The position numbers and the translations under genes are program-made. Positions 497-54,726 of a stretch of 64,000 nt of DNA are shown in pieces. The DNA is from Candidatus Thorarchaeota archaeon SMTZ1-45 (lineage in GTDB: Archaea > Asgardarchaeota > Thorarchaeia > Thorarchaeales > Thorarchaeaceae), in the NCBI GenBank assembly GCA_001563335.1, contig LRSL01000055.1, positions 1 through 64,000 of the forward strand. The letters run 5' to 3'. Positions within the stretch are counted from its first letter, which is position 1. The number at the start of each line of letters is the position of its first letter. The notes under the pieces were generated by a model. The model saw only the letters and a program-made list of their open reading frames with translations. It did no database searches and was not told the DNA's origin.

Positions 497-518
497 TCAT
501 ACAATATATGACAGCTCA

Positions 519-528
519 AGAATATATG
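519..528 (-). promoter_or_regulatory. TATA-like box for the FEN1 gene
   Basis: On the minus strand this AT-rich stretch reads CATATATTC and is centred about 28 bases before the FEN1 ATG. That is the usual archaeal TATA to start-site distance for a leaderless mRNA. A second similar stretch lies closer (about 503-509), so the assignment is tentative. Confidence 0.35.
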
Positions 529-635
529 CTTCGGGATGACACTCACACTTCGACAGATTTATAATAACTCATCAGCACGCCCCCAAAACTGGTGCTTATA
601 GCATCTGTAAATCTTCTGGTGATAACTTGGCAACG

Positions 636-803
636 ATGAGAGCTATCCGATGTACATCCTGTCACGCTTCTGTTTCTCCACAGGAAGATGGCGTGAAATT
701 TCAATGTCCATCATGTGGTGAATTCACCATATGGCGTTGTGAGTCATGTAGACGATTTTCGAATAGGTACACATGCCCTAACTGTGGATTTGAGGGACCA
801 TAA
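636..803 (+). CDS. Small zinc-finger protein next to aEF1-beta
   Basis: A 55-residue protein made almost entirely of two rubredoxin-like knuckle pairs: CTSC...CPSC and CESC...CPNC, ending GFEGP. This matches the small archaeal zinc-finger family (HVO_2753 type) conserved directly upstream of the elongation factor 1-beta gene. The next gene 23 bases downstream is aEF1-beta, so the pair is probably co-transcribed. The eight cysteines should bind two zinc ions. The molecular role is not established from sequence; a link to translation is inferred from the conserved neighbourhood. ATG start, with a GGTGAT element about a dozen bases upstream. Confidence 0.85.
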   Translation: MRAIRCTSCHASVSPQEDGVKFQCPSCGEFTIWRCESCRRFSNRYTCPNCGFEGP

Positions 804-826
804 CCAAATTCTAGAGATGATATCAA

Positions 827-1093
827 ATGGCACGAGTAGTTATGACCCTCCGAATAATGCCTGAGGATGTTGAAATTGACTTAGATGATCTACTTGAGAG
901 AATCAAGCGTGTGATTCCAGAAGGAACAGACTTGGGAGCTACAGAAACGCAGCCCGTGGCCTTTGGTCTTCAAGCACTCAGAATGAATCTTTCACGCGAC
1001 GAGTCTTTGGGTGGCACTGATGATATCGAAGAGGCAATAGGCGCTGTGGAGGGAGTATCACAAGTCGAAGTAGAAAGAGTGTCTAGAATGTAG
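827..1093 (+). CDS. ef1b: Translation elongation factor aEF1-beta
   Basis: Nucleotide exchange factor for aEF1-alpha, recycling GDP to GTP during translation elongation. The 88 residues match the archaeal family length. The pattern is typical: an N-terminal strand ARVVMTLRIMPEDVEIDLDD, a middle helix and VAFGLQALRM strand, and the C-terminal IEEAIGAVEGVSQVEVERVSRM. The ATG is preceded by GAGATGAT with short spacing. It follows the small zinc-finger gene, as in many archaea. No oddities. Confidence 0.95.
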   Translation: MARVVMTLRIMPEDVEIDLDDLLERIKRVIPEGTDLGATETQPVAFGLQALRMNLSRDESLGGTDDIEEAIGAVEGVSQVEVERVSRM

Positions 1094-1302
1094 TAGGCGC
1101 GGAATCCAAGCGTTCTTGATTCATTCAGAGCTCTTTGAAAGGTATTAAGCACCCATAGAGTAACATAGCTAAGTTCTGTATCTGAATATATTGGTAAACA
1201 AAGAAACATTGAATAACGGAAACTGGACGATTCTTAATGATTGAACTAATCACGTCCGGTTTCTCATACTATAATAATGGTATAGGAGGATGCTTCAAAG
1301 AA

Positions 1303-3510
1303 ATGGTCGAAATAATCCTAAAGGTCGCAGAGGCCGAGCACAGAGATATTGGTAGGTTCATAGTCCGTATTGACGCTGTTTCAATGGAGAAGCTGGGAGT
1401 TAGAACTGGGGATATTATCCAAATCAAGGGCAAAAGGTTGACTGCAGCCATTGCATGGCCAGCATATCAAGGTGATAAGGGTAGAGAAATTATTCGGATG
1501 GATGGTCGAATCAGAAGGAATGCAGGCGTGAGTCTAAGCGAGAAAGTGACCGTTACAAGAGCTAACGAAGAGCCTGCAAAGAATGTGACTCTTGCACCCA
1601 CATCGGTTCCAATCAGACCAGAACCTCGATTCGAGGAATTTGTCAAGAGGAAACTCCTCAACTGTCCTGTTACGACCCAAGATACTGTGTTTATTCCGAT
1701 TCTTGGAAGGGCTATTCCCTTCAAAGTCACCTCCATAAAACCAGCTGGTACAGTGGTAGTACAACATTCAACAATTCTAGCCATAGCAGAGAAACCAACA
1801 GGGGATGTTGTGGGTGCAGCACAGGTGACCTATGAGGAGATTGGTGGACTATCTGACGCAATACAGAGAATAAGAGAGATGGTTGAACTCCCAATGAAAC
1901 ATCCTGAGATCTTTAAGAGATTGGGAATTGACCCACCTCGAGGGCTTATTCTTCATGGACCACCAGGTACAGGAAAGACACTGCTAGCCAAGGCAGTTGC
2001 TGGTGAGTCTGAGGCCAACTTTGTTCATATCAATGGTCCAGAGATTATGTCCAAGTTTTATGGAGAGTCAGAGCAGAAGCTTCGAAAGATTTTCGAAGAG
2101 GCTGAAGAAAACGCGCCAAGTATCATATTTATTGATGAGCTAGATGCTATCGCACCTAAGAGAGAAGATGTGCAAGGCGAGGTCGAGAGACGTGTAGTTG
2201 CACAGCTTCTGGCAACAATGGATGGGCTTAAGGTACGTGGTCAAGTAGTAGTAATAGGTGCAACAAATCGTGTGAATGCGCTTGATCCCGCTCTTCGGCG
2301 GCCAGGTAGATTTGACAGAGAGATTGAGATTGGAGTTCCAGATGAAACAGGAAGATTGGAAGTACTTCATATTCACTCAAGAGGCATGCCATTGACCACG
2401 GAGGGTAGTGGGACAGTAGACTTGCAGAATCTGGCAAAGATCACTCATGGATTTGTAGGCGCAGACCTTCATGCACTATGCAGAGAGGCTGCAATGAAAG
2501 CTCTTAGAAGATACCTCCCTCAAATCGATTTGGAGGCCGAGGAAATCCCCCAAGATGTGCTGGATAAACTTGAGGTTCATAATGGAGATTTTCTGGAGGC
2601 ATTGAAAGAAATTCAACCCTCTGCAGTCAGAGAAGTGTTCATTGAAGTTCCGGATGTGAAATGGAGCGACATTGGAGGATTGGACCAAGCAAAACAAGAG
2701 CTAAAGGAAGTTGTTGAATGGCCGCTCAAAAGACCAGAGTCATTCCGACGACTGGGAATCACACCACCCAAAGGAGTCCTTGTTTTTGGACCACCTGGTT
2801 GTGGAAAGACTCTCCTAGCAAGAGCTGTGGCAACTGAGAGTGAGGCCAACTTCATTAGTGTTAAGGGACCAGAGCTAATATCAAAATGGGTCGGAGAAAG
2901 TGAAAAAGCTATCAGAGAAGTATTCAGAAAAGCAAGGACCGCTGCGCCTGCCATTATCTTCTTTGATGAAATTGACGCGTTGGCACCAACAAGAGGAGCT
3001 GGAGGAGATGGTCCTGGAGCAGTACACAATCAGAGAGTAATCAGCCAACTCCTAACAGAGATGGATGGATTGGAGTCAATGAAGGATATCGTTGTTATCG
3101 CTGCGACAAATCGTCCAGAATTAATAGACAAAGCTCTCCTAAGAACTGGCAGGTTTGATCGATTTGTCTATGTGGATGCTCCAAATGCAGAGAGTAGAAG
3201 GGCAATTTTTGAAATCTATACTAAGGGTATGCCCCTTGATGCAGATGTCGAAAAGCAGTTTGACAAACTTGTTGAACTAACAGAGGACTATGTCGGAGGA
3301 GACATCGAAGCAATCTGCAGAGAAGCTGGAATGAGAGCTTTGAGGGAGAATATGGAAACTGAGGCTGTTTCTTGGAAGCATTTCCAAGATGCTATTGGGT
3401 CCGTGCATTCATCAGTGACTAAGGAGATGCTAGAACGCTATAGAAAGATGGATCAAACGCTTCGTAGAACCACTGAAGTAGACGCTGCAGCACATGCAAT
3501 GTATGGCTAA
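1303..3510 (+). CDS. cdc48: Cdc48/VCP-type AAA ATPase
   Basis: Hexameric unfoldase that extracts and unfolds proteins, in archaea partly for the 20S proteasome. From the ATG at 1303 it has 735 residues: N-terminal double-psi barrel region (about 1-185), D1 AAA module (Walker A GPPGTGKT near 219, Walker [11 protein letters not shown] near 274) and D2 module (GPPGCGKT near 496, [10 protein letters not shown] near 551). The arginine-finger helices [10 protein letters not shown] and RTGRFDRF are intact. The reading frame extends 22 codons further upstream, but family alignment ([18 protein letters not shown]) and an AGGAGGA element at 1284-1290 favour 1303. The last three residues are Met-Tyr-Gly, a hydrophobic-Tyr-X tail of the kind that docks on the proteasome. 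Confidence 0.96.
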
Positions 3511-3529
3511 GCAATGAGGTGAGAGAGAA

Positions 3530-3790
3530 TTGGCCCCGTGGAATGCAATGCCTATGACAAATTTGATTGTTGATATTGTAAAGAAACGACGAGGAGTCAT
3601 CCTGGATGATGAGCTCATAAGGGCGTTGAAAAAGGAACTTGGAGCAGAGCCTAGTGAGGCTGAACTCAATGAAGCTTTACTAGTCCTCGAAATAAATGGG
3701 CTTGTTCATGTCAGTCAAATAACAAAGACAAAACGTCGAATCGAGGTCATCACTGAAGCAGAAACTTTCCTCGCTGTAGACGAAGACTAA
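3530..3790 (+). CDS. Small winged-helix-like protein, function unknown
   Basis: An 86-residue protein. The pattern NLIVDIVKKRRGVILDDELI, an acidic linker, then AELNEALLVLEINGLVHVSQ and a beta hairpin IEVI is what a small winged-helix domain looks like. No specific family was recognised. The TTG start is supported by GAGGTGAG seven bases upstream; in-frame ATG codons at 3548 and 3554 are alternatives. It lies 19 bases after cdc48 and 18 bases before the FAD synthase gene, suggesting one transcript. DNA binding is an inference from fold only. Confidence 0.65.
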   Translation: MAPWNAMPMTNLIVDIVKKRRGVILDDELIRALKKELGAEPSEAELNEALLVLEINGLVHVSQITKTKRRIEVITEAETFLAVDED

Positions 3791-3808
3791 ACCTCAGGTG
3801 TAATCCCA

Positions 3809-4270
3809 ATGAGAGGAATAAGAGTCCTTGCAGCGGGAAAGTTCGATATACTTCACTTGGGACATATCTCTTATCTTGAACAGGCAAGAGAACTGGCGGG
3901 AGAAAATGGAGAACTAATTGTAGTAATTGCCCTCGATAAGACAATTCTCAGAGAGCGAGGTGCCCCACCTGTGTTTCCACAGGAGCAAAGACGCAAAATT
4001 GTAGAGTCGTTAAAATTTGTTGACAGGGCTGTAATTGGTCTTGACACTGATGACCATACTTTGATTGTTTCAGATATAAATCCAGATATCATTGCCCTTG
4101 GTTACGACCAGTATACGGATACCGATTCACTTGAGGCTTATTTTGTAAGTAAAGGAATGAAGACCAAGATTGTGAGATTGGAGAAACGTGATGCTGATGG
4201 TCTGTGTTCGTCTACATTGATAAGAGAGCGTATAATTGACTATTATCGCGAGAATGGAACACCTCGGTAG
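3809..4270 (+). CDS. ribL: FAD synthase-type cytidylyltransferase family protein (RibL-like)
   Basis: A 153-residue nucleotidyltransferase of the archaeal RibL family, which adenylylates FMN to FAD; glycerol-3-phosphate cytidylyltransferase-like members are the alternative. The nucleotide-binding motif GKFDILHLGHISYL carries the H-x-G-H pair near the N-terminus, and the second signature SSTLIRERI lies near the C-terminus. The cysteine in LCSSTLI matches the redox-sensitive cysteine seen in RibL. ATG start preceded by CAGGTGTAA. It ends five bases before the convergent membrane-protein gene. Confidence 0.8.
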   Translation: MRGIRVLAAGKFDILHLGHISYLEQARELAGENGELIVVIALDKTILRERGAPPVFPQEQRRKIVESLKFVDRAVIGLDTDDHTLIVSDINPDIIALGYDQYTDTDSLEAYFVSKGMKTKIVRLEKRDADGLCSSTLIRERIIDYYRENGTPR

Positions 4271-42428: not shown

Positions 42429-43160
42429 ATGAAAGAAGCGAAAAAAATCTTCAAGGCTGCTCGTGAGGAGGGCAGGACCTTTGTTCTTGAACACGAAGCA
42501 AAGGACATCATGAAGGCATATGGCATCCCAATTCCAGCCTATGCAACTGCAACTACGGTTGAAGAAGCAATTGAGAAATCCAAAAGCATGGGATTTCCCG
42601 TTGTACTCAAGATCCTTTCCAAAGATATTCTGCATAAGTCAGATGCAGGAGGCGTGAAGATTAATCTCAAGAATGAGGACGATGTTCGAAAAGCCTTCGA
42701 TGAGATTATGAAGAATGCAAAGAAGTATGGAAAAGAGAAAGGTTTGGAGATTGACTTGAGTCGTGGGGTTTTCATCTCCGATTTTGTAGACATGGGGACT
42801 GAGATCATTGTGGGAGTCACAAAGGATCCACAATTTGGTCATGCTCTTATGGCAGGTCTGGGCGGCATCTTTGTCGAGGTTCTCAAAGATGTGTCATTCA
42901 GACTGATTCCATTCTCAGAAACTGATGCTAGGGAGATGTTAAGCGAACTCAAAGCATACAAGATTCTCGAGGGTGTGAGAGGCGAGGGTCCCCGGGACAT
43001 TGACGCGTTAGTCGAAGTAATGCTCGCAGTTTCAAAGATGGTTGAGGAGAACCCTGAGATAATTGAACTTGACTGTAATCCAACATTCGTATATGAGAAA
43101 GGAAAAGGTGCCCTCGTGGTTGATGCGCGGATTTTGATAGAAAACCTCAACGAAACTTAG
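42429..43160 (+). CDS. acdB: Acetate-CoA ligase (ADP-forming) beta subunit
   Basis: ATP-grasp subunit of the ADP-forming acetyl-CoA synthetase, 243 residues: EHEAKDIMKAYGIPIPAYA, VVLKILSKDILHKSDAGGVK (with the histidine that accepts phosphate), IIVGVTKDPQFGHALMAGLG and ELDCNPTFV. Separate alpha and beta genes are the arrangement in hyperthermophiles and several Asgard genomes; here they are adjacent and codirectional. Its stop overlaps the convergent 398-residue gene by four bases. Confidence 0.94.
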   Translation: MKEAKKIFKAAREEGRTFVLEHEAKDIMKAYGIPIPAYATATTVEEAIEKSKSMGFPVVLKILSKDILHKSDAGGVKINLKNEDDVRKAFDEIMKNAKKYGKEKGLEIDLSRGVFISDFVDMGTEIIVGVTKDPQFGHALMAGLGGIFVEVLKDVSFRLIPFSETDAREMLSELKAYKILEGVRGEGPRDIDALVEVMLAVSKMVEENPEIIELDCNPTFVYEKGKGALVVDARILIENLNET

Positions 43161-44353
43161 TCACTAATCATAGTATGAAGAAGAACTAGACCTCTCTTGA
43201 GATCGATGTCCTTCAGAGGATCTTTTGATGATGTCTTTGTAGCTGTGGCTAGAAGCAACAAGAGTGCAACCAATCTAGGCACAAGTCTAGCGTACTGAAG
43301 TAGGAAGTCTTTGTTTCCAGTTGAGTCTACAACAAGACCTTCAAGACGTCTTATCAAAAGCTGAATCCTCTCTTCTACGCCATTATCAAGTTTAAGTCCT
43401 CGAAAAAGCTGAATCGCCACTGATTCATCTTGCAAGAAGGCAGATGAAACACCAATATTCTCGAACATCTGCAAAGCATTGAGAATAGTAGAGTCGTAGT
43501 GCTCATCTTCGAGCCGTTCTATCTCTTGTTTTACAGCCTGAAGTTGACCTAGAAAACGGAGTGAGTTTGTCAGTATAGTCCGCGAAGCCCCAGAGGTGGC
43601 TGGAGCCATTTCTGCTAAATAATCACCATGAACCTTCTCAAGGCGTGCAGCAGCTGACGAGTTCAGTTTTCTCTCGAACCCTGGAGAGAATCCAACACTT
43701 GCTGCTTTTGGCAGAACAGGATGCGACCCCAATCTACGAATTACAGTCAGCGCTTTGAAATCCTCACTTGGAACATAGAAGCAAAGTATTCGGAGTATGT
43801 CATATGCTGTTTCAAAGTCAGTTTCTGATATCACATTGCGACCTTGTCCTTTGCATGCAAAAGCACTAAGAATAGCCCATGAAGAAATAAAACTCTCACG
43901 AAGGTCATCTCGTTGGACTTTATCTGCCACCTCATGTTCTTTCAAGAAACGAAACAATTTCTCTGCAGCACCTGAGATTCTCTGTAGAGTATTGGGTCCA
44001 AATTGGAGGTCAGTTATGGACTTAATGAAGTTCCTTGGTTCCCTAGAGGGTGGTCTTAATACAAAACCAGGCTCATTTCTGGTCATTAGCCACCATTTTG
44101 ATGTTGAAGTGAAATAGTCAAGCACATCAATTGCTTCAGTGACATCAGTTGGATTTGCTAGATCTCGGGATTCTAAATATGCCACAAGTTTCGTGAAGAG
44201 ACTGACAAATCGTGTTAGATGGACTGATATCTTGGACCCTAAGAACAGAAAATCTGTAAACCTAGTTACTACTATTTCGATTTGTTTAGGGACAGAGTCC
44301 TCTACCGTTATTCCTAGCAAACCTTTGTAGACTTCAACTGGAGTTCGCGTCAA
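43157..44353 (-). CDS. All-helical protein of unknown function
   Basis: 398 residues, soluble, predicted almost entirely helical, with no cysteine motif or P-loop. Two internal segments have a similar rhythm (VSLFTKLVAYLESRDLANPTDVTEAIDVLDYF and ILSAFACKGQGRNVISETDFETAYDILRIL, shown in part), reminiscent of the helical lids that follow AAA+ cores. This suggests an ATPase-adaptor-like fold, but without a core. No family recognised. It overlaps the end of acdB by four bases on the opposite strand. Confidence 0.6.
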   Translation of the reverse strand: MTRTPVEVYKGLLGITVEDSVPKQIEIVVTRFTDFLFLGSKISVHLTRFVSLFTKLVAYLESRDLANPTDVTEAIDVLDYFTSTSKWWLMTRNEPGFVLRPPSREPRNFIKSITDLQFGPNTLQRISGAAEKLFRFLKEHEVADKVQRDDLRESFISSWAILSAFACKGQGRNVISETDFETAYDILRILCFYVPSEDFKALTVIRRLGSHPVLPKAASVGFSPGFERKLNSSAAARLEKVHGDYLAEMAPATSGASRTILTNSLRFLGQLQAVKQEIERLEDEHYDSTILNALQMFENIGVSSAFLQDESVAIQLFRGLKLDNGVEERIQLLIRRLEGLVVDSTGNKDFLLQYARLVPRLVALLLLLATATKTSSKDPLKDIDLKRGLVLLHTMISD

Positions 44354-44414: not shown

Positions 44415-45191
44415 CTACTTACCAAATCTTCTAGACCGTGCTCCATAGGAACGTAAAGCGCGCCATATATCAATCCGGCGAACAGCTGGCCAGTAAACTT
44501 GTGCAAAGTAAAGCTCTGAATATGCGGATTGCCACAAGAGAAAACCAGAGAGTCGTTCTTCACCTGATGTACGAATTATAAGATCAGGGTCAGGTATACC
44601 ATTAGTGTATAGGTGGCCTTCTATAATGTCCTCATCAATCTGAGATGATGACAATTCGCCAGTTTCAATCTTTTCACCAATCGCCCTCACAGCATCAACA
44701 AGCTCAGCTCTTCCAGAGTATCCAATAGCGACATTTAGAATGTGGTCATTATATTCTTTGGTTTCCTCCTCGGCATCTCGGATAGCTTTCTGAACTTTTT
44801 CAGGAAGAAGGTCAACTCTTCCAATAGCCTGTATTCGAACTCGATGACGGTGAACATCCGGATTCCCGACGACTTCACTAAACTTTTCTTCTGCAAGAGC
44901 CATTATCTCCTCGACTTCATCCTTTTTCCTCTGAAAATTCTCGATAGAGAAGGCATACAATGTGCACACTTTCACATTAGCCTCCCAAAGAATACGCAAC
45001 ACATCCATCACCTTCGCAGCACCCCTTTGATGACCAAACCATGGAACCTCAAGGCCATGTTTTCGTGCGTATCTACGGTTCCCATCTAGAATAATGCCAA
45101 CATGTCGTGGAGCACTATCTTTGTCTAATTGTCTGAAGAGATAGTATTCATACAGTCTATACATAGGACCAGATAGGTTCAATTCTAACAC
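44415..45191 (-). CDS. uppS: Cis-prenyltransferase (polyprenyl diphosphate synthase)
   Basis: Builds the long polyprenyl chain used as lipid carrier for glycosylation. 258 residues. Motif 1 HVGIILDGNRRYARKHG with the catalytic aspartate, WFGHQRGAAKV, the FSIENFQRKKDEVEEIM helix, AIGYSGRAELVDA, and the C-terminal DLIIRTSGEERLSGFLLWQ and ELYFAQVYWPA, all standard. GTG start at 45191; an ATG nine codons later is possible. Related in role to the GlmU-like and GT-C-like proteins of this window. Confidence 0.95.
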   Translation of the reverse strand: MLELNLSGPMYRLYEYYLFRQLDKDSAPRHVGIILDGNRRYARKHGLEVPWFGHQRGAAKVMDVLRILWEANVKVCTLYAFSIENFQRKKDEVEEIMALAEEKFSEVVGNPDVHRHRVRIQAIGRVDLLPEKVQKAIRDAEEETKEYNDHILNVAIGYSGRAELVDAVRAIGEKIETGELSSSQIDEDIIEGHLYTNGIPDPDLIIRTSGEERLSGFLLWQSAYSELYFAQVYWPAVRRIDIWRALRSYGARSRRFGK

Positions 45192-45253: not shown

Positions 45254-45625
45254 TTAGATCATTTTCGCAATCTTCTCTGCAGCACGTTTCATATCTAAGA
45301 ATATGAGACCTAGTTTGGCATTTGCAGTGGTGGAAACAGTCAGACAAGCGTTGATGCCAGCTGCCGTGACCAACAACCAGCCATCGACACCCTTGACATT
45401 GACTTGCTCAAGGTTGCCTTTCCCAAGCTCTATCGCCGCTCTCTCACCAAGACTCAGCATAGCAGCAGTCATTGCTGCGACCTTTGCCTCATCTACATCT
45501 GTGGGAAGAGCCGAAACAATTGGTAACCCTTCTACACTAACTATAGCACAGGCTTCAATCTCGGGAATGCTTCCTTGTAGTTCGTTCAGAACACCTTCGA
45601 GAGTATTTTCGCGGGTCTCTGCCAT
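45254..45625 (-). CDS. Roadblock/LC7 domain protein 1
   Basis: 123 residues, one Roadblock/LC7 domain: LEGVLNELQGSIPEIEACAIVSVEGLPIVSAL, the alanine-rich helix VAAMTAAMLSLGERAAIEL, then strand pairs EQVNVKGVDGWLLVTAAG and ACLTVSTTANAKLGLIF. Such proteins dimerise and serve as platforms or GAPs for small GTPases, as MglB does for MglA or Ragulator for Rag. It lies 13 bases after the GTPase gene on the same strand, which supports that pairing. Confidence 0.92.
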   Translation of the reverse strand: MAETRENTLEGVLNELQGSIPEIEACAIVSVEGLPIVSALPTDVDEAKVAAMTAAMLSLGERAAIELGKGNLEQVNVKGVDGWLLVTAAGINACLTVSTTANAKLGLIFLDMKRAAEKIAKMI

Positions 45626-45638
45626 TTGGTCTCACCTG

Positions 45639-46211
45639 TCATTTGTACATTCTTTTCAGGATGACTTCTCTTGCTATTGCTTGAAAAGCCCTCTTAACTC
45701 CTACGCCCTGTACAGCAATTGTTTCATAGATGGGTACATTTCCACCAAGACCAAGTAGGTCGAGCATTTCATCTCGTGACATCCTGTTTGGTAAGTCTCG
45801 CTTGTTTAGCATGACTACTATCGGAATTTCACGACCAAGAGCATCACCGAGGAACAACTTTAGCTCCTCGAAACTCTCTGTGTTCTCATCGCGCTGATCC
45901 GGTGAAGAGTCTGCAACAAATAGGATTCCATCAGTGCCCTGAAGCACCACCTTTCTCTGATGCCTGTGTCGTTTCTGTCCAGCCACTGTGAAGACATCGA
46001 AAAGCACTCGGCCACCCGCTGACATAGGGACATAGTCAAAGAACAGCGTACGATTGGTTTCATCCTCAATTGCAGTGAACTCTCCCTTCTGTAGCCCTTC
46101 TACTTTTCCATAAAGCCAGCGGAGCGCGGTTGTTTTGCCTCCTAGGGACGGGCCATAGAATACTAGTTTGAGATGAATTCGTCCCTTGTCGTCTTTTCGA
46201 ATTGTAAACAC
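45639..46211 (-). CDS. MglA-like small GTPase
   Basis: 190 residues. G1 FYGPSLGGKTT near 17, the MglA-type ETNRTLFFDYVP switch I region, G3 TVAGQKRHRHQR (TVAGQ instead of DxxGQ), G4 NKRD, and the G5 region IAVQGVGVKRAF. MglA GTPases belong to the Ras superfamily and are abundant in Asgard archaea. It is encoded between Roadblock genes and downstream of a Sec23/24-like gene, which suggests a switch with its regulators. No membrane anchor is evident. Confidence 0.92.
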   Translation of the reverse strand: MFTIRKDDKGRIHLKLVFYGPSLGGKTTALRWLYGKVEGLQKGEFTAIEDETNRTLFFDYVPMSAGGRVLFDVFTVAGQKRHRHQRKVVLQGTDGILFVADSSPDQRDENTESFEELKLFLGDALGREIPIVVMLNKRDLPNRMSRDEMLDLLGLGGNVPIYETIAVQGVGVKRAFQAIAREVILKRMYK

Positions 46212-46273
46212 CTCATTGTGTCACTGCAGAGGTCCCTGTAGTGGGATGTTGGTTGAGTAAAGTTCTGTCTAAT

Positions 46274-46315
46274 AAAAGCCTTTGTGGCACGAGAGGGTGC
46301 CCTCGGACGGCTTTT
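46274..46315. terminator. Hairpin between Roadblock 2 and the GTPase gene
   Basis: An outer stem AAAAGCC/GGCTTTT encloses an inner stem GGCAC/GTGCC. A/T tracts lie at both ends, so it could act as a terminator on either strand; the genes on both sides are on the minus strand. It would separate the Roadblock 2 transcript from the GTPase-Roadblock 1 pair, or be a leader hairpin of the latter. Confidence 0.45.
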
Positions 46316-46399
46316 TGGTTGACTGAACTGATTCACTCCAGTACTCATGATTACTGGAACAGCCAAGCGTGGATACATCTGTGTGTGATATGTATGATT

Positions 46400-46864
46400 T
46401 CACACACGCTCGAGCTCAGCCAGGGCAGATTTTAGGTCTTCTTCGTCAAGCTCGCTCTCTTTGGGAGATAATGGCTCCACTGCAAGGAACTTGTCAAGCT
46501 CATTAGCTAGTTGTACACCTTGTTTCTTCATCACAAGCCGGATCAGACCAATATTCACCTCTGCCTCAGAAACTACACAGAGTACACCTTTCCCACAAGC
46601 TGAGGCGAAAATTTTGCCCTCCGAGAACTCAGAAGTGACTATCTCAAGCTCCCCAATCTGCAGGTTCTTGCCCTGCTCCTCACTTGCACAGAAGACCGCA
46701 CTGGCAATGGCTCCAATTGAGTCGACGTCTACTGGGTAGTAGCTCAGCTTCGACACATTAGCTATTGTGAGGCCTGTCTTGTCGACTAGTATGACCTTTT
46801 TGATACCTTTGTCTTGGCGAATGATCTCTGTCAAAATTTTATCAAACGCCTTTGGGTCGCTCAT
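46400..46864 (-). CDS. Roadblock/LC7 domain protein 2
   Basis: 154 residues: a Roadblock domain (LTEIIRQDKGIKKVILVDKTGLTIANV, IGAIASAVFCASEEQGKNL, IGELEIVTSEFSEGKIFASACG, VNIGLIRLVMKK) with an acidic C-terminal extension of about 30 residues (EPLSPKESELDEEDLKSALA). The two cysteine-containing strands are unlike the other copies. The gene follows Roadblock 3 by 26 bases and probably shares its transcript. Confidence 0.9.
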   Translation of the reverse strand: MSDPKAFDKILTEIIRQDKGIKKVILVDKTGLTIANVSKLSYYPVDVDSIGAIASAVFCASEEQGKNLQIGELEIVTSEFSEGKIFASACGKGVLCVVSEAEVNIGLIRLVMKKQGVQLANELDKFLAVEPLSPKESELDEEDLKSALAELERV

Positions 46865-46890
46865 TCATAGTTCACCTCAATCTTATTCTC

Positions 46891-47193
46891 TTACTGATTG
46901 TTCTTAAGGACTACTAGGATGAGTCCTTCGTTCACTTCCGGTGCGATGTTAATCTGACCCTTGGTTGTATCCAAGGTCAGAAATGACAACGACCCCTCTC
47001 GAAGTTCTCGCACAGCATCTAGTGCTTTTCCAACGAGGGAGGTGATTATTGCAGCGACGTTCTCTGTAGTTTCCGGGTCTAGATCACTACTGAGTGGCAG
47101 ACCTTCCAAGGTGGTCACGACAACTCCTCGGACTCCTTCTTGTGACTTAAGTTTAGAAAGAATCCCTTGGAGCTTTTCTTGGCTAATCACCAT
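46891..47193 (-). CDS. Roadblock/LC7 domain protein 3
   Basis: 100 residues from the ATG at 47193, preceded by GCGAGGCC: LQGILSKLKSQEGVRGVVVTTLEGLPLSS, VAAIITSLVGKALDAVRELR and LSFLTLDTTKGQINIAPEVNEGLILVVL. This is a minimal Roadblock domain. The frame runs 27 codons further upstream but those residues do not fit. First gene of a pair with Roadblock 2. The 297 bases up to the Sec23/24-like gene hold a terminator-like hairpin and otherwise nothing recognised. Confidence 0.9.
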   Translation of the reverse strand: MVISQEKLQGILSKLKSQEGVRGVVVTTLEGLPLSSDLDPETTENVAAIITSLVGKALDAVRELREGSLSFLTLDTTKGQINIAPEVNEGLILVVLKNNQ

Positions 47194-47431
47194 ACAGAGG
47201 CCTCGCTGATTCAACTGTGCCTTAACATCTACGCCGCAGTTGACTATTTTAGACTTGTGGAGATATGTTACCAACCCACGTAGCTCATTTGCGCATTTGA
47301 AGAATATTTGGGGTTGTGTTACATCATCTGTGGGGATTTTATACCTTCATTCATAATAAAGAATTGATTCCAGTGTCGTTCCTGGAAGGACATGAATAAT
47401 GCCCAGTAAACAATGAACGATTGTGTTACAT

Positions 47432-47471
47432 AAAAAAAGAAGCGTGGTCGTGTTAGAAAAACACACGACCA
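47432..47471 (-). terminator. Intrinsic-type terminator after the Sec23/24-like gene
   Basis: TGGTCGTGT and ACACGACCA (47445-47453 and 47463-47471) form a perfect nine-base stem with a nine-base loop. On the minus strand it is followed by CGCTTC and seven T. It begins 20 bases after the stop of the minus-strand gene. Confidence 0.7.
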
Positions 47472-47490
47472 TTGATTTTGATTCAAAGTA

Positions 47491-49113
47491 TTAGGCTTCT
47501 TCATCTTTGTCAAAGAGTTTCTTTGAGCTTCTTTTCATCTGAGCAAGACTACCTGTGAAAGCTTCATCAGCAGCTCCTGATGGGCCTGCAGCTGGAGCCT
47601 CAGCCATCATCTCCTCCTGACGAGTAATCTCAGCCTCCTCGTTGTTCAAGACATTGTCAGTCTTATCCAACATTGCTTGAACGCTAGCAGGAGCAGACTT
47701 TGCCTTTGTCTTCAGAGCCTTTCTGAATGAGGCGATCCGCTCTCGCCCCTTCTCCCTATCACCACGGAAAGACTCTTCCCCAGCTTTCTGTGTCACAAAG
47801 GTTGCACCAACTGTTGGGTCGAGGGTTTCCATTATTTCTTCCTCTTTCTTGGTAACACGAAGCTTGGTTGTCACCACACGAACTCTTCGTGCACCCTCTT
47901 CATCAGTGTAAGATACTTGGACCTGTATTGGTACTTCAGGCGCCTTAATCTCCATTTCTGGTTCAACCTCAAAGTATAGCTCATGATCCTCACCAACAAC
48001 TCCAATCTTACTCTCGCCGTTCTTCTTCAACTGGTCAACAACAGCCCGGGAAACTCCAGAGGCATCTTTGACTTTCACACCTGGAGGTGTGACAAGCCGC
48101 ACCTCTACATCCCTACCTAGAAGAGATGCTCCAGCCAATTCAGAGAGACTGCGATCAAGCTCATTTGGAGTCACATAGTACATCTGACCACCAGTTGCTT
48201 CAGGTAAGAGCCCTAACGTCTGAAGCTCCATGCCAGCACCTGAGGCAATACCAACTACATCGACCGCGGTACCGAGTTCCATGAACATCTTTCCTAGGTC
48301 CTCGTAGTATTTACTCGCAGGAGTGACCTGATATCCCTCAAGAGCACCAATACCTTCGTTAGCAAGCCCATCCGTGAGAAGGACCACTCTTCCAACATTG
48401 CGATGCTTGGCAATGACATAGGCCATTCCAACTGCTGGGCCCAACGCAGTGCCACCTTGGTCACGGAGTGTTTGTACATGCTTTTTTAGCCGGTCCTTGT
48501 TCTTTCCCACACCTACTAATTTCACCTGGTCAAGAAGCTTCTTTGTAGACTCCATGATATCTTTAAGACTCGCAAAGGAGTCTCTCGGAAGTTCAACTGG
48601 ATTTCCGTTTTCCAGATTTCGAGCAACAACAGAGCTCTCAAACTCTATCAATCCAAACATGGTGTCTGGTGCGTTCGCGGCAAGACTGTCAATGGATGTG
48701 TTCAGACTGCGTTTAACTGCAGCTAGGTTTGCTCCAGCCATTGATCCTGAAACATCAATTAGCCCAAGAAATGAACGTCCGCCTACAGAGATTGTTTCCG
48801 TTTCGGTGGTTGTGTCTGGTGGCGGGTTAACAATGAAATCGGTGTCATCACCTGCTACTACAATCTCACCCTCAATGACATTTAGAGTTCCACAGAAAGG
48901 ACAAACAAAGTGTTTGCCCACCTTTGGATCGTCTTCTATTTGGTCTACACTAAGAAGGAAGCCATTACATTTGTGGCATGCAATGGGCTTTCCTACAATC
49001 TTTGTGGTTTCATGCGCAAGATGACCAAATTCTACACGCAGGACATATGGAATATCGCTCAGTACTTTTTTCGAAGCTGGAAAAGCCGCTGAGCTAGTTC
49101 TCAACATAGGCAT
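47491..49113 (-). CDS. Zinc-finger/von Willebrand A protein with Sec23/Sec24-like architecture
   Basis: 540 residues. Order: beta-rich N-terminus (1-40), zinc finger C46-x2-C49-x21-C71-x2-C74, vWA domain with the metal site DVSGSM (D120, S122, S124), GGTALGPA and LTDG; beta sandwich (about 330-420, VEVRLVTPPGVKVKDA, PIQVQVSYTDEEG); helical tail (to about 505) and a disordered alanine-rich end. Zinc finger, vWA trunk, beta sandwich, helices is the order in the COPII coat subunits Sec23 and Sec24, and Sec23/24-like proteins have been reported from Asgard archaea. The intact metal site differs from eukaryotic Sec23/24. A plain vWA protein is the alternative. TTGGAGGC precedes the ATG. Its neighbours are Roadblock proteins and an MglA-like GTPase. 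Confidence 0.75.
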   Translation of the reverse strand: MPMLRTSSAAFPASKKVLSDIPYVLRVEFGHLAHETTKIVGKPIACHKCNGFLLSVDQIEDDPKVGKHFVCPFCGTLNVIEGEIVVAGDDTDFIVNPPPDTTTETETISVGGRSFLGLIDVSGSMAGANLAAVKRSLNTSIDSLAANAPDTMFGLIEFESSVVARNLENGNPVELPRDSFASLKDIMESTKKLLDQVKLVGVGKNKDRLKKHVQTLRDQGGTALGPAVGMAYVIAKHRNVGRVVLLTDGLANEGIGALEGYQVTPASKYYEDLGKMFMELGTAVDVVGIASGAGMELQTLGLLPEATGGQMYYVTPNELDRSLSELAGASLLGRDVEVRLVTPPGVKVKDASGVSRAVVDQLKKNGESKIGVVGEDHELYFEVEPEMEIKAPEVPIQVQVSYTDEEGARRVRVVTTKLRVTKKEEEIMETLDPTVGATFVTQKAGEESFRGDREKGRERIASFRKALKTKAKSAPASVQAMLDKTDNVLNNEEAEITRQEEMMAEAPAAGPSGAADEAFTGSLAQMKRSSKKLFDKDEEA

Positions 49114-49172
49114 CAGTATTTGCCTCCAAAATAATTCGAGTGACCTTTGCGTGAGGAGTTTTAAGTGATTCT

Positions 49173-49191
49173 ACGAAGAATGCTTCTTCGT
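49173..49191. promoter_or_regulatory. Palindrome between the divergent Sec23/24-like and Roadblock 4 genes
   Basis: ACGAAGAA-TGC-TTCTTCGT: eight-base perfect arms with a three-base centre, in the 185-base gap between the starts at 49113 (minus) and 49299 (plus). It lies 60 bases from one start and 108 from the other, as expected for an operator shared by both promoters. Confidence 0.5.
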
Positions 49192-49298
49192 GTACAAGAT
49201 AGTAATCTATAATGAACACTACAGACCAACACACAAGATATTTACATGCCTAATACCTGAAAGCAGATAGACAATTCAGGCCTCTTGGGAGGAATTTC

Positions 49299-49664
49299 AT
49301 GATGGATAAAGCTAAGATTGAAAAAGTTGTATCAGAAACGATGGCTGCCAATGCAGATTTGGAAGGTATAGTCATATGTGATGCTAAAGGAAGTGTGCTC
49401 TTTGGTCACACAATTAGTGGAGGGACAAAGCATTCAGACATAGCAAACCTTGCGGTGAAGATAGCAGCTAACTCGTCCCAGCTCTCAGCTGGTCTAGACA
49501 AGGGGGGCCTGAAGGAAGTCAATATTGCATCAGATACCGGTTTCATTCTTATCCTCGGCGATGTTAAATTGGTACTAACGGGAGTCGCAGGAGAAGGAGC
49601 GAGAGAGTCACTAGGGCTTCTCAGAATGGCTCTGCGAAGAGCGCTTTTGCAAATGGTTACATAG
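49299..49664 (+). CDS. Roadblock/LC7 domain protein 4
   Basis: 121 residues: IEKVVSETMAANADLEGIVICDAKGSVLFGHT, the helix DIANLAVKIAANSSQLSAGL, and strands LKEVNIASDTGFILILG and KLVLTGVAGE, ending in a helix ESLGLLRMALRRALLQM. GGGAGGAATTTC precedes two adjacent ATG codons. It is divergent from the Sec23/24-like gene, and the SMC operon follows on the same strand 199 bases downstream. Confidence 0.9.
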   Translation: MMDKAKIEKVVSETMAANADLEGIVICDAKGSVLFGHTISGGTKHSDIANLAVKIAANSSQLSAGLDKGGLKEVNIASDTGFILILGDVKLVLTGVAGEGARESLGLLRMALRRALLQMVT

Positions 49665-49863: not shown

Positions 49864-52800
49864 TTGGTTCATATTGAGAAGCTTGTATGCAAGGGCTTCA
49901 AATCATTTGGACGAGAGACAGTCACCATTAAGCTAAACCCAGGTTTCACGTGCATAGTTGGACCAAATGGATCTGGCAAGTCCAATGTTGTTGATGCCAT
50001 TCTCTTTGTGTTGGGACAACTAAGTGCTAAGACTCTTCGTGCTAATGTGTTTTCGGACTTGCTATATTCTCCGCCGAAACCAAATATGCCTCCAAAAGCT
50101 AAGTCTGCTCATGTAGAGTTGCACTTCGATAATAAGGATAGAAAATTACAGATTGATGCGGATCGTGTTGTGATTGAAAGAGAATTAGATGATTCTGGAA
50201 AATCAGTATGCCGCATCAATGGAAAAGTAGTTACTCGTACTGCAGTGTTGGATGTATTAGGCGCCATTGGAGTGGACCCCAATGGGTACAACCTTGTCCT
50301 CCAAGGGGAGATTGCTCAGATGGTCAAGGTTAGTCCAATAGAGCGAAGGAAATTGATAGAGGATATCGCAGGAATATCAGCTTATGATGAACAGAAGGAA
50401 CGCGCTCTCAAAAAGCTGGCTGAAAGTGAGAGCAACTTGGGTAAAGTTGACATGCAGCTTCAGGAAAGGCGCCGACAGCTTGAGAAATTAGAAGAAGATA
50501 TGTCTGATGCGCGTAGGTATCAGAGTCTCCATAATCAGACACGAACACACAGAGTTGACATTCTCGCATGGAGTACCATAAAGGGTAATTCTAGGATTGA
50601 AACCATCAACGAAACGCTGGCGCAACGCGCTGAAGAGGCCGAGAGTCTTGTCAAGGAATTTGTAGAAGTGGAAACAGGTATACAGAGCACGGAAACTGAG
50701 ATTGAGAAGATAGATCATGAGATTGATCAGATCACTGGAGGAGATTCAACTAGGGTATCAGAACAGTATGGTATAGTTTCTGCTGCTGTTTCTCATGTAA
50801 GAGGTGACCTGGAGAGAGCTCAAGCAGAGTTTGACAAGGTAGCTGGAGAGATGTTGGCGCTCAGTGAGGAACTTGAAACTGTACAAGATGAGATTAGTCA
50901 CAATGAACAGGTTTTGGCGGACAAGAACAACGAACTGACTGGTCTTGAAAAAGAGATAGCAGGTACAGCTGCAGAGATCATCCGATTAGAGGACATGTCA
51001 GAAAGGGCACAGATTGAATATTATGAAACTACACTACGGCTTCAGGATTTGAACAATCAAATGAGACACCTAGATGAGGGTGTTTCTGAAGTTCGATCAA
51101 CGATAAAGTCAGACAACAGGGAGTTAGGACTTGCATATGAGGAACTAAGAGATGCAAAGGAGAGTCTGGAGAAGACTGAAGCAGAGATTTTACAATTGAA
51201 GGAAACCGTTCCTGAGAAGAGAACTGAGCTCGAAAAGTCCGAACAGCTCGAGCGAACTCGACAGGCTGAAATCGATGATTTGACTGAACGGCTTACAACT
51301 GTAGATGCAGAAGTTGCAGAGAGCACAAAAATAGTAGCTCAGACAAGAGAGGAGCTCATCAAGGTAAAGGCACGTCAAGACGCTTTGAAAGAGGCAGAGG
51401 ACGCGTTTCTTAAGAGACGTCGTGCAATCGCCACAGTTCTGGAGCTTAGAGATGCAGGTGCAATTGGTGGAATATATGGCACAGTAGCAGAGCTTGGAAC
51501 AATTGACCCAGACTATGCGGTAGCATTGGAAATAGCTGGGGGCAATAGACTCTCACATATTGTTGTTGAGAATGAGCGTGTTGCAACGGAATGTGTCAAC
51601 GTGTTGAAGAATGAGCGAGTTGGTAGAGCCGCGTTCATTCCACTTGACAAGATTAAGACTAGTGCTCCTGGAAAACTCCCCAAAGATGATGGAGTTATCG
51701 ACTTCGCATTGAACTTGGTGAAGTTTGATCCTAAAATGCACCCAGCATTTGAGTTTGTATTTTCTGATACAATTGTGACTGAGGATTTTGAAACAGCAAA
51801 ACGGCAAGGGTTCCAAGGACAGAGAGCAGTATCTCTTGAGGGAGATCTTGTAGAGCGTTCTGGATTGATTACAGGGGGATATTTCCAACAGGCCACAGCT
51901 GGGCTGTCGCTCCAGGTGGAGGACACTAGCCCTGAGATTGAGGATCGTCTTAAGGGATTGGAAGAGATTCTGACCGAGCTTCGTAGCAAGCAGGATGTTC
52001 TTCGGAAAGAGCTAAAGAGCTATGAAAAGGAAGTTCAAGGTCTTTCAAAGACAAATTACAAACTCCGTATGGAACTGGAGCGATTAGAAGAACGATTTGA
52101 AGAGCAAAAATCTAGATCTACGATATTACAGGAGCGAATAGACAAGGCGAGCCTCACAATCAATGAACTTGAATCTCAGATAAAAGACCTTCAAGAGCGC
52201 GATGATGAACTTAGTGTACAGCGAGAGAGAGTTCGTACTCAACGTGATGAAGCTAATGAAGCATTGGTCACCTCGGATGCCAACAAGCTCAATCAGGAAA
52301 TCAAGGATTTGAAGGAAGTACTGGAACAATATCAGAAACAAAGAGAGAAGCTTCAGAGTGAAATCACCTCTGTAAGAGTTGCGATTGATGAACGGCTTGG
52401 ACCTAAAGCCATTGAGCTTGAATCCAAGATTCAAGCTCACGATGCAATTATTCCAGGCCTTGAGGAGGAAGTGAAACGACTACAAATGGGACTCTCAGAG
52501 AGAGAAAGAGAGTTTGAGAAGCTCAAGGAAGAGCGGGAACGCATTGATGAGGCTGTAAAGGATAAGCGAGTTCGCCAGCTTGAATTAAAAGAAGACCTAC
52601 GAAATCTAAGGCTGCGGCATGAAGAGATTCGTGAAGCACAGACATCCAATGAAAAGGCAGTATATCGGCTTCAGACCGAACAAGGCAGACTAGAGGCGGA
52701 TGTCGTTGGATTTGTAGCTGAACTGAACACAGTTGGAAGCGCCCAAGAGGCTCTTGAGGAGAGAGCAGAAGAACGGGAACTCACCTACAAAGAGATAGAG

Positions 52801-53454
52801 GAACTTGAGGAGAAAATCAAAGAGATTGAGAGAGAACTCGAAGCCATGGGACCTGTCAACCTGAAGTCTCTGACAGACTATGACTTGGAGAAAGAACGGT
52901 ACGAAGAAATTGTTGACAAAAAGACTAGGTTGGAAAATGAACGAAAAGAGATACTTGTGTTCATGGAGGAACTTGAGGCTGAAAAAACACAGAAGTTCCT
53001 CACCGTCTACAACGAGATTGCTGACAACTTTTCAAAAGTTTTTGCAAAGCTTTCTCCTGATGGTGAAGCCAACCTCATGCTTGAGAATCCCGAACATCCT
53101 TTGATGGGAGGAATAACAGTCAGATCAAAACCACGCGGAAAAGAGCTGGTCACTCTTGATGCGATGAGTGGCGGAGAGAAGACGCTTACTGGATTGGCAC
53201 TCATTTTTGCCATTCAGATGTATAGTCCTGCAAGCTTCTACATATTTGATGAGATAGATGCTGCGCTTGACAATGTTAACGCTCATAATGTGGCACTACT
53301 CATCTCAGAGATGTCGAAAAACTCACAGTTTGTTGTTGTGTCCTTGAGAGACACCACAGTTCGAAAAGCTGATTTATTGGTTGGAGTATCAAATCAAGAT
53401 GGAATCTCAAGGATTGTTTCAGTCGATTTGGAGGAGGTTGCTACATCAGCATGA
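49864..53454 (+). CDS. smc: Chromosome segregation protein SMC
   Basis: ATPase of the SMC-kleisin complex that shapes and segregates the chromosome. 1196 residues: ATPase head with GPNGSGKSN at 33-41, a Q-loop in VLGQ, a first coiled coil (about 170-500), the hinge (about 510-660, GGIYGTVAELGTIDPDYAVA), a second coiled coil (about 680-1020), and the C-terminal head with SGGEKTL near 1102 and FDEIDAALDN near 1128. TTG start. The stop overlaps the ScpA start (ATGA). Confidence 0.97.
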   Translation: MVHIEKLVCKGFKSFGRETVTIKLNPGFTCIVGPNGSGKSNVVDAILFVLGQLSAKTLRANVFSDLLYSPPKPNMPPKAKSAHVELHFDNKDRKLQIDADRVVIERELDDSGKSVCRINGKVVTRTAVLDVLGAIGVDPNGYNLVLQGEIAQMVKVSPIERRKLIEDIAGISAYDEQKERALKKLAESESNLGKVDMQLQERRRQLEKLEEDMSDARRYQSLHNQTRTHRVDILAWSTIKGNSRIETINETLAQRAEEAESLVKEFVEVETGIQSTETEIEKIDHEIDQITGGDSTRVSEQYGIVSAAVSHVRGDLERAQAEFDKVAGEMLALSEELETVQDEISHNEQVLADKNNELTGLEKEIAGTAAEIIRLEDMSERAQIEYYETTLRLQDLNNQMRHLDEGVSEVRSTIKSDNRELGLAYEELRDAKESLEKTEAEILQLKETVPEKRTELEKSEQLERTRQAEIDDLTERLTTVDAEVAESTKIVAQTREELIKVKARQDALKEAEDAFLKRRRAIATVLELRDAGAIGGIYGTVAELGTIDPDYAVALEIAGGNRLSHIVVENERVATECVNVLKNERVGRAAFIPLDKIKTSAPGKLPKDDGVIDFALNLVKFDPKMHPAFEFVFSDTIVTEDFETAKRQGFQGQRAVSLEGDLVERSGLITGGYFQQATAGLSLQVEDTSPEIEDRLKGLEEILTELRSKQDVLRKELKSYEKEVQGLSKTNYKLRMELERLEERFEEQKSRSTILQERIDKASLTINELESQIKDLQERDDELSVQRERVRTQRDEANEALVTSDANKLNQEIKDLKEVLEQYQKQREKLQSEITSVRVAIDERLGPKAIELESKIQAHDAIIPGLEEEVKRLQMGLSEREREFEKLKEERERIDEAVKDKRVRQLELKEDLRNLRLRHEEIREAQTSNEKAVYRLQTEQGRLEADVVGFVAELNTVGSAQEALEERAEERELTYKEIEELEEKIKEIERELEAMGPVNLKSLTDYDLEKERYEEIVDKKTRLENERKEILVFMEELEAEKTQKFLTVYNEIADNFSKVFAKLSPDGEANLMLENPEHPLMGGITVRSKPRGKELVTLDAMSGGEKTLTGLALIFAIQMYSPASFYIFDEIDAALDNVNAHNVALLISEMSKNSQFVVVSLRDTTVRKADLLVGVSNQDGISRIVSVDLEEVATSA

Positions 53455-54170
53455 TGAATGAAGATTCTCCCTTCTGGGCAACTCCACCCTACATTCTTCT
53501 CACAGATGTGCTCCAACTAGATAAAGTTGAACCTTGGAATGTAGATGTCGGTAAGCTTGTGGTTGGTTTCCTTGATGAGATGAAGCGACTGGGAGATATT
53601 GATTTTCGTATCTCAGGAAATGCACTATACTCAGCATCTGTGATTTTCATGAGAAAAACCAGAGAGTTAGTTGAACTTGGGCTCCTACCACCAGAGGAAG
53701 ATGATGATGAGGATTTCGTGATTCCGCTCATTCGTCCCCCCTTCAGACTGACAAATCGGCGTGTGACGCTTGAAGAGTTACTTGTTGCTATGGATCAGGT
53801 TCTCAGCAAGGGTGTCAGACAACGAGCTATTACTACCAAACGAAGATACAGCTCAAGAGCGGATCCATTGACATTTGAGATGAACAAAGACCAAGCCAAC
53901 ATTGAGGAGACAATAGCTGATGTCTATGGAGATCTCTGCAGGATAATGAAAGTTGGAGAGGTGTCAAGGTTTACTGATGTACTTATGAATAACACAAGAC
54001 AAGAGATTGTGAGAGTCTTCTTTTCACTCCTGTTCCTTTTTGCAAGAGCTTACATTGACATTTGGATGGATGAAAATAGCATCATCTGGGTAAAACTAGA
54101 GGGACCTCCTAAGGCGACTAAAAAGGACAAGTCTAGTGATGAGGGGATAAAACCAGAGATTAAGACCTAG
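53451..54170 (+). CDS. scpA: Segregation and condensation protein A (kleisin)
   Basis: Kleisin that bridges the SMC heads. 239 residues: N-terminal LLTDVLQLDKVEPWNVDVGKL, a helix with MKRLGDIDFRISGNALYSAS, an acidic linker (PPEEDDDEDF), and a C-terminal winged helix (IVRVFFSLLFLFARAYIDIW) that binds the other head. It starts with an ATG overlapping the smc stop by four bases, so translation is coupled. ScpB follows. Confidence 0.94.
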   Translation: MMNEDSPFWATPPYILLTDVLQLDKVEPWNVDVGKLVVGFLDEMKRLGDIDFRISGNALYSASVIFMRKTRELVELGLLPPEEDDDEDFVIPLIRPPFRLTNRRVTLEELLVAMDQVLSKGVRQRAITTKRRYSSRADPLTFEMNKDQANIEETIADVYGDLCRIMKVGEVSRFTDVLMNNTRQEIVRVFFSLLFLFARAYIDIWMDENSIIWVKLEGPPKATKKDKSSDEGIKPEIKT

Positions 54171-54180
54171 GGTGTTGTCA

Positions 54181-54726
54181 ATGGATGATGATATGATCAC
54201 ACTAGAAGCAGCCCTTTATGTTTCGGGTCGAGCTCTGACTTTAGAGGAACTGGCAGACATCATTGGTAAGTCTCAATCTACTGTGCAGAAGATACTTGAT
54301 GAATTAAGCTTCGAATATAGCAAGAGAGAGAGTGCTTTAGAGGTAGTTGCTCTACCAAAGGACCGGTATGTGATGCAGTTGAAACCAGAACTCACTCCCC
54401 GCGTTGGTAAACTAATACCAGGAGGACTCCTCTCATTCGCAACTCTTCAGACTCTGGTTTTTGTTGCTCTCAAACAGCCCATACTTCAATCAGAGCTTGT
54501 ATCTCTACGAGGAACACATTCCTATGATCATATCAAAGACCTTGTTGACAAGAAGTTCATTGATGCTGTACCTGAGGGTCGCTCAAAGTTATTAACAACA
54601 ACCCAACTCTTTGCTGATTATTTCGGTCTGGATAGTGATAGAGTCAAACTCAAAGCACAACTCAAGTTCAAAATGAAGAAAATACTTGAAGACCAGAGTG
54701 AAATTAAAGAACCATCTACACATTAG
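54181..54726 (+). CDS. scpB: Segregation and condensation protein B
   Basis: Winged-helix partner of the kleisin. 181 residues from the ATG at 54181: ITLEAALYVSGRALTLEELADIIG, STVQKILDELSFEYSKRESAL, RYVMQLKPELTPRVGKL, then FATLQTLVFVALKQPILQSEL and HIKDLVDKKFIDAVPEGRSKL. In-frame GTG (54172) and TTG (54175) codons precede it; AGGGTG at 54169-54174 fits the ATG. It completes a contiguous smc-scpA-scpB operon. Confidence 0.92.
   Translation: MDDDMITLEAALYVSGRALTLEELADIIGKSQSTVQKILDELSFEYSKRESALEVVALPKDRYVMQLKPELTPRVGKLIPGGLLSFATLQTLVFVALKQPILQSELVSLRGTHSYDHIKDLVDKKFIDAVPEGRSKLLTTTQLFADYFGLDSDRVKLKAQLKFKMKKILEDQSEIKEPSTH

Follow-up and report, generated by a model that had tools for sequence, protein, structure and literature searches.

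The described systems closest to the locus analyzed here are MglA-MglB of Myxococcus and Thermus and the conservons of actinobacteria (CvnB-CvnD), in which a single-domain small GTPase with a Thr residue in its G3 motif is encoded near a Roadblock gene. In most cases an MglA gene is coupled to Roadblock genes, and one or two coupled MglB proteins per MglA have been reported; Group-1 MglA proteins possess the sequence TVPGQ together with an Arg beside the Thr of G2, and those of Groups 2 to 5, including the archaeal Group 4, possess GTPGQ and no such Arg (Wuichet and Sogaard-Andersen 2014, PMC4316618). In the Ragulator-Rag system (LAMTOR1-5, RagA/C), four Roadblock-fold subunits, two long and two short, accompany a GTPase that itself has a COOH-terminal Roadblock domain. 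According to Tran 2024 (PMC10933270), MK-D1 does not as a rule place GTPase and Roadblock genes in shared operons, and Asgard small GTPases and Roadblock proteins are therefore hard to pair; that published view rests on the Lokiarchaeon MK-D1. We here describe an island of one MglA-type GTPase gene and four Roadblock genes (Rbl1 to Rbl4) in a 64-kb window, the whole stretch of DNA that was analyzed, of contig LRSL01000055.1 from Candidatus Thorarchaeota archaeon SMTZ1-45.

Asgard archaea are relatives of the ancestor of eukaryotes. Small GTPases and Roadblock proteins are encoded by the dozen in their genomes, and for one such GTPase the island offers a pairing in the majority of the other families sampled. 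Judged from sequence, it appears as a strongly conserved GTPase-Roadblock module of the MglA-MglB kind, with four distinct Roadblock proteins and hence more than reported for that kind. No such island is described in the portions consulted of the open-access literature on Asgard Roadblock proteins, which does not in itself prove novelty.

Organization of the locus

The features of the island and its surroundings are as follows.

45254..45625, minus strand: Rbl1, full-length Roadblock protein of 123 amino acids (Pfam Robl_LC7, 61.9 bits)
45639..46211, minus strand: MglA-type small GTPase of 190 amino acids, GTG start (PDB match MglA, E = 3e-38)
46400..46864, minus strand: Rbl2, Roadblock protein of 154 amino acids with a conserved COOH-terminal tail, LKSALAELERV (Pfam Robl_LC7 and MAPKK1_Int)
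46891..47193, minus strand: Rbl3, short LC7-type Roadblock protein of 100 amino acids without a COOH-terminal helix (Pfam, 60.6 bits)
49299..49664, plus strand: Rbl4, divergent Roadblock protein of 121 amino acids (profile match to structure 9jq8)
47491..49113, minus strand: Sec23/24-like protein of 540 amino acids (Pfam Sec23_trunk and Sec23_BS; AlphaFold2; Foldseek)
47428..47471, minus strand: terminator-like hairpin with a T-rich tail, 9-bp stem at 47445-47471 (minimum free energy -14.7, z -3.4)
44415..45191, minus strand: cis-prenyltransferase (UppS), recurrent downstream neighbor (Pfam Prenyltransf, 260 bits)
49864..54726, plus strand: SMC, ScpA, and ScpB, recurrent upstream neighbors past Rbl4 (SMC by Pfam; ScpA and ScpB by position and size only)

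Transcription on the minus strand would proceed in the order Sec23/24-like gene, Rbl3, Rbl2, GTPase, Rbl1, and UppS, with Rbl4 and SMC on the opposite strand. Rbl1 starts 13 nucleotides 3' of the GTPase gene, and 26 nucleotides separate Rbl3 from Rbl2. A preliminary description of this DNA had placed six genes at these coordinates and on these strands, and its domain assignments proved correct, that of Rbl4 by way of a family profile. Given that the genome contains 11 Pfam matches to Robl_LC7 per 3.54 Mb, three such matches within 1.9 kb have a chance expectation of ~1e-4; because the arrangement also recurs across Asgard families, the cluster exceeds chance. A sigma-70 promoter scan of the locus gave no excess over shuffled sequences, its consensus being bacterial and not meaningful for an archaeon.

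Properties of the GTPase

The GTPase contains the P-loop GPSLGGKT, NRT at G2, TVAGQ at G3, and NKRD. Its best PDB matches were MglA proteins (134 bits), followed by the Arf family at 49 bits, in agreement with the MglA-like assignment made previously. It is a single domain within the 240-residue limit of the MglA family, and the Roadblock gene that defines this family when located within four genes is represented by four in the window. The MglA alignment extends to residue 185, leaving no room for a Rag-type COOH-terminal Roadblock domain.

Among 97 distinct Asgard GTPases, an Arg adjoins the G2 Thr ("RT") in 90, the window protein included, and G3 reads TVAGQ in 77 and TVPGQ in five (82 together), with Thr-Val retained and Pro mostly replaced. 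On the strength of these counts, the catalytic signature appears to be Group-1-like, with the intrinsic Arg of Group-1 MglA and a G3 motif, TVxGQ, that resembles its TVPGQ; the likeness is one of catalytic motifs. The island differs from MglA-MglB and the conservons in having TVAGQ in place of TVPGQ, in a distinct switch II (KRHRHQR), and in the lack of an adjacent histidine kinase gene. Island-type GTPases of Asgard archaea have a switch II that is basic, for the most part K/R-R-H-x-x-Q, a feature not found in MglA.

The identity of the GTPase across Thorarchaeota was 91 to 100% (median, 98%), the highest of 14 neighborhood genes compared and above that of two yardstick proteins compared over the same family of genomes, V-ATPase A (78 to 91%) and Cdc48 (79 to 94%). 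In other Asgard archaea, identity was about 46 to 65%. This exceptional conservation marks the GTPase out as one to study.

A second GTPase, ~50% identical to that of the island, is present in most sampled Thorarchaeota, in an open frame of ~275 to 311 amino acids with a COOH-terminal extension. In the genome of the copy at G000:C75:19225-19767 (locus L141), a Roadblock gene is located on that contig at a distance of ~8 kb.

Conservation of the island among Asgard archaea

Conservation was assessed in 119 Asgard genomes sampled evenly across 24 families (f1 to f24) and, separately, in 49 loci of named genomes. In the latter, almost all Thorarchaeota retained the gene order, records titled Jordarchaeia, Sigynarchaeota, and Freyarchaeota showed the same order without the Sec23/24-like gene, and in Heimdallarchaeum Rbl3 and the GTPase gene remain adjacent. 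In the even sample, the GTPase was found in 100 genomes, Rbl2 in 104, and relatives of Rbl3 in 102. The full set of Rbl3, Rbl2, GTPase, and Rbl1 occurred in nine families (f1, f4, f5, f6, and f9 to f13, with Rbl1 inverted in f10) and a partial island in nine more, so that conserved gene order in related Asgard genomes, a check that had been set beforehand, was borne out.

Considering families that have both genes of a pair, and counting those with adjacency in at least one genome, we found Rbl3 and Rbl2 as neighbors in 13 of 19 families (f1, f3 to f7, f9 to f13, f16, and f23, the lone f16 case being a genome with 12% contamination), Rbl3 and GTPase in 14 of 19, and Rbl2 and GTPase in 11 of 21.

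Two loci titled Candidatus Lokiarchaeota (L032 and L036) carry a Thorarchaeota-type island with a 96 to 97% identical GTPase; these titles look wrong or outdated.

Four Roadblock families

Rbl1, Rbl2, and Rbl3 matched Pfam Robl_LC7 (38.1 bits for Rbl2), whereas Rbl4 scored below the cut-off (16.5 versus 23), its family profile nevertheless matching the Roadblock structure 9jq8 with an E value of 8.8e-22. Scores for Pfam LAMTOR5 were 27.3 for Rbl3 and 23.2 for Rbl4, with a cut-off of 27. Relatives of Rbl1, Rbl3, and Rbl4 are already among the solved Asgard Roadblock structures (7f8m, 7yh1 and 9jue from MK-D1, 7f8f, and 9jq8), and we found no report tying these structures to the island GTPase. 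The solved relative of Rbl1, 7f8m (E = 7e-25), is from Thorarchaeota SMTZ1-45, and the PDB matches of Rbl3 include 7f8f (E = 3e-26) and the dynein light chain Roadblock (E = 3e-13). Rbl1 is 77 to 98% identical within Thorarchaeota and adjoins the GTPase gene in many Asgard families; Rbl4 is transcribed divergently from Rbl3 in seven families.

In a tree of 115 Roadblock sequences, seven label changes were required, compared with a minimum of four and with 66 for shuffled labels. Rbl2 and Rbl4 each formed one clade at 100%, and Rbl1 and Rbl3 were interrupted solely by long-branch paralogs from the same genome; the few alignment columns and long branches limit what the deeper forks can tell. Given that each Rbl groups across families with its own kind, the tree indicates that Rbl1 to Rbl4 are four separate old paralogs and not recent local copies.

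Rbl2 was found in all 45 good-quality Asgard genomes. It exceeds the cut-offs for both Robl_LC7 and MAPKK1_Int (the LAMTOR3 family), and both domains were matched by all 30 relatives (E ≤ 0.001). An AlphaFold2 model of Rbl2, of medium confidence (predicted local distance difference test [pLDDT] score, 69.5), resembled LAMTOR2, its top match, as well as an MK-D1 Roadblock protein and MglB. A choice between LAMTOR and MglB identity was not sustained, the structural scores being nearly equal and the pLDDT only 69.5.

Alignments indicated that Rbl1, Rbl2, and Rbl4 extend into a COOH-terminal helix-like stretch, whereas Rbl3 stops short. The tail of Rbl2, LKxALxELExV, follows a variable linker and is predicted, with low confidence, to form a separate helix (AlphaFold2). 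In Tran 2024 (PMC10933270), LC7-type Roadblock proteins are described as lacking a COOH-terminal helix, which a partner supplies, and we hypothesize that the Rbl2 tail might be such a helix donor for Rbl3. Scored as present when the profile match reached position 150 or beyond, the tail was found in nearly all genomes with Rbl2 beside Rbl3 or GTPase and in 1 of 21 f2 genomes. An explanation of the tail by the presence of Rbl3 was set aside, since the two do not track each other cleanly across families: the tail is present in f24, which has no Rbl3 match; in f21 the only Rbl3 paralogs are weak ones; and f2 lacks the tail but has relatives of Rbl3.

The Sec23/24-like protein

The 540-residue protein consists of a zinc finger, a vWA trunk, a beta-sandwich, and helices (residues 433 to 534), after which it ends, these being the parts that it shares with Sec23 and Sec24 of coat protein complex II (COPII). 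The Pfam cut-offs for Sec23_trunk and Sec23_BS were exceeded, and both domains were matched by all 24 relatives. The zinc finger scored below its cut-off in the window protein (17.4 versus 25), with Cys residues 46, 49, 71, and 74 invariant in the 24 relatives; the metal ion-dependent adhesion site (MIDAS) motif, DxSxS...T...D, is intact and likewise invariant. The AlphaFold2 model (pLDDT, 84.6; predicted template modeling score, 0.87) matched Sec24 and Sec23 chains in Foldseek with E values of 1e-29 to 1e-20 and a template modeling score of about 0.7 of the query; the next matches were another vWA protein (9e-17) and ArnAB (8s05, titled archaeal ortholog of the Sec23/24 core motif; 7e-15). 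Pfam gave no match to a gelsolin domain, the source of the GTPase-activating protein (GAP) arginine of Sec23. Also in contrast to COPII with its Sec23-Sec24 pair, the gene is present as one copy in the genome (88% complete), and the MIDAS motif is intact. In ArnA-ArnB the zinc finger resides in a separate zinc-finger/FHA partner, ArnA, whereas the thorarchaeotal protein has it in cis and so departs from ArnB. The protein is a genuine relative of the Sec23/24 fold that lacks a gelsolin domain, in keeping with the Sec23/24-like assignment in the preliminary description. Homologs of Sec23/24 in Thorarchaeota have already been reported (Zaremba-Niedzwiedzka 2017, as cited in PMC7997004 and PMC9648965).

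The gene was found in 44 of the 119 Asgard genomes. Of 25 Thorarchaeota genomes, 24 have it between Rbl4 and Rbl3 and one (G036) has it elsewhere; it is beside Rbl3 in none of the 18 genomes outside Thorarchaeota that have both genes. The loci inspected outside Thorarchaeota had unrelated neighbors, the one exception being a 500-residue protein (L173) with a weak Roadblock-like score of 25 bits. Given that, in jord- and freyarchaeal loci, Rbl4 and Rbl3 face away from each other with no gene between them, the simplest reading is that Thorarchaeota acquired the Sec23/24-like gene by insertion between the two divergent start sites.

In the window, the stop codon of this gene is followed by the hairpin with a T-rich tail (z -3.4 for the 70-nucleotide stretch), which a generic consensus scan omitted because its loop limit is 8 and the hairpin loop is 9. 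Of 30 Thorarchaeota loci, 15 had a similar hairpin after the gene, compared with 0.8 expected from shuffles; these are not 15 independent events, given that some loci are close relatives, and the other 15 loci were negative by this detector. The same detector found no terminator-like hairpin after the Rbl2 or GTPase genes of the 30 loci. The Sec23/24-like gene is probably its own transcription unit, and its product is probably not a component of the module.

Possible function of the module and alternative explanations

We estimate at roughly 0.7 the probability that the island encodes a switch module, of long standing in Asgard archaea, in which a small GTPase of the MglA type, equipped with an intrinsic arginine finger, would act with its own four Roadblock regulators. 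Roadblock homo- or heterodimers most likely contact the GTPase through its switch regions, by analogy with MglA-MglB. They would either help to position the Gln and Arg residues of the GTPase for hydrolysis or aid exchange and, in the manner of MglB with MglA, would bring it to a membrane or a protein scaffold. Three full-length proteins and one short LC7-type protein would serve one GTPase and, given that four allow several dimers, the roles of GAP, guanine nucleotide exchange factor (GEF), and localization could be divided among them. Homology and gene order are our grounds for inferring a physical complex and the direction of regulation, whether as GAP, GEF, or scaffold. The island suggests that, early in Asgard evolution, a catalytic signature like that of bacterial Group 1 was already accompanied by several Roadblock partners.

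Several observations weigh against a dedicated switch module. Family f13 retains the island and lacks the G2 arginine. In f2, apparently Lokiarchaeota, the genes are present but scattered, with Rbl3-Rbl2 linkage in 0 of 17 genomes and Rbl2-GTPase linkage in 0 of 11, so that co-transcription is not required. The gap between Rbl2 and the GTPase gene in Thorarchaeota is 111 to 3925 nucleotides and may contain unrelated genes. The linkage may also partly reflect plain synteny, given that UppS (within ~250 nucleotides 3' of Rbl1 in f1, f5, f6, f9, f12, f16, and f20) and SMC-ScpA-ScpB (in the same order in f1, f9, and f11) are conserved neighbors as well.

The scattered f2 genes also bear on an unlikely alternative, that the Roadblock proteins are mainly structural, a scaffold or light chain-like platform for other partners, with the GTPase linked by history and not regulated by them. 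The likeness of Rbl3 to the dynein light chain, the presence of Rbl2 in every good genome, the separation of the f2 relatives of Rbl2 and Rbl3 from the GTPase gene, and the reading of one thorarchaeotal Roadblock protein as a possible scaffold in Tran 2024 (PMC10933270) would all fit such a platform. Yet Rbl3 has stayed beside the GTPase gene in 14 families despite rearrangement of other genes, and the known pattern for MglA and MglB is that GTPase and Roadblock protein are coupled (PMC4316618). A special case of the switch module, a pre-eukaryotic complex like Ragulator in which the four Roadblock proteins would form two heterodimers around the GTPase, is doubtful. The number of Roadblock proteins per GTPase resembles that of LAMTOR2-5, Rbl2 exceeds the MAPKK1_Int cut-off with LAMTOR2 as the top match of its model, and Rbl3 and Rbl4 score near the LAMTOR5 cut-off; the size classes, however, are three long and one short instead of two and two, LAMTOR2 scores little better than the MK-D1 Roadblock homodimer or MglB, and the GTPase is of the MglA type without the Rag COOH-terminal domain. 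We regard as similarly doubtful the bolder proposal that Roadblock proteins surround one MglA-type GTPase as an obligate hetero-oligomer, essential across Asgard archaea and a forerunner of the Ragulator-like platforms of eukaryotes, in which the Rbl2 tail would supply the helix for Rbl3 in the manner of LAMTOR1 or the dynein intermediate chain.

The preliminary description had proposed that a GTPase switch, its Roadblock regulators, and a coat-like protein are encoded together, possibly as one membrane- or surface-associated system related to early eukaryotic trafficking modules. The part that stands is the GTPase with its probable Roadblock regulators; the Sec23/24-like protein is linked to the island only in Thorarchaeota. 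That all these proteins form a single membrane coat is very unlikely, even though the Sec23/24-like gene of Thorarchaeota keeps its place between Rbl4 and Rbl3, its predicted fold is closest to Sec23/24, and it has been retained through the divergence of Thorarchaeota at 53 to 91% identity. It is located elsewhere in 18 of 18 other Asgard genomes and in one thorarchaeote (G036), it occurs in far fewer genomes than do the module genes (44 versus at least 100), and a terminator-like hairpin follows it in half of the Thorarchaeota loci; because it adjoins the island only in Thorarchaeota and is often followed by the hairpin, a combined coat and switch is unsupported, and the neighboring gene loses weight as evidence for one. 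Also against a single coat, the GTPase is MglA-type and not Sar1-like, and the Sec23/24-like protein is single-copy and without a gelsolin domain.

Neighboring genes and other observations

The spacer between Rbl2 and the GTPase gene (46250-46399, minus strand) folds more strongly than shuffled sequences (z -2.7) and could be a leader or a processing element. In four Thorarchaeota loci (L019, L023, L031, and L044), differing unrelated genes are located at one point, between Rbl2 and the GTPase gene, splitting the island into Rbl3-Rbl2 and GTPase-Rbl1. An uncharacterized 398-residue protein without a Pfam match (window positions 43157-44353) adjoins UppS in nearly all Thorarchaeota loci, with 40 to 80% identity; in other families, it was not observed near the island. 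Finally, the V-ATPase A genes at G043:C55:79053-82451 and G090:C583:19041-22448 contain an in-frame insert near query residues 237 to 244, in frames of 1142 to 1147 amino acids, that looks like an intein near the P-loop.

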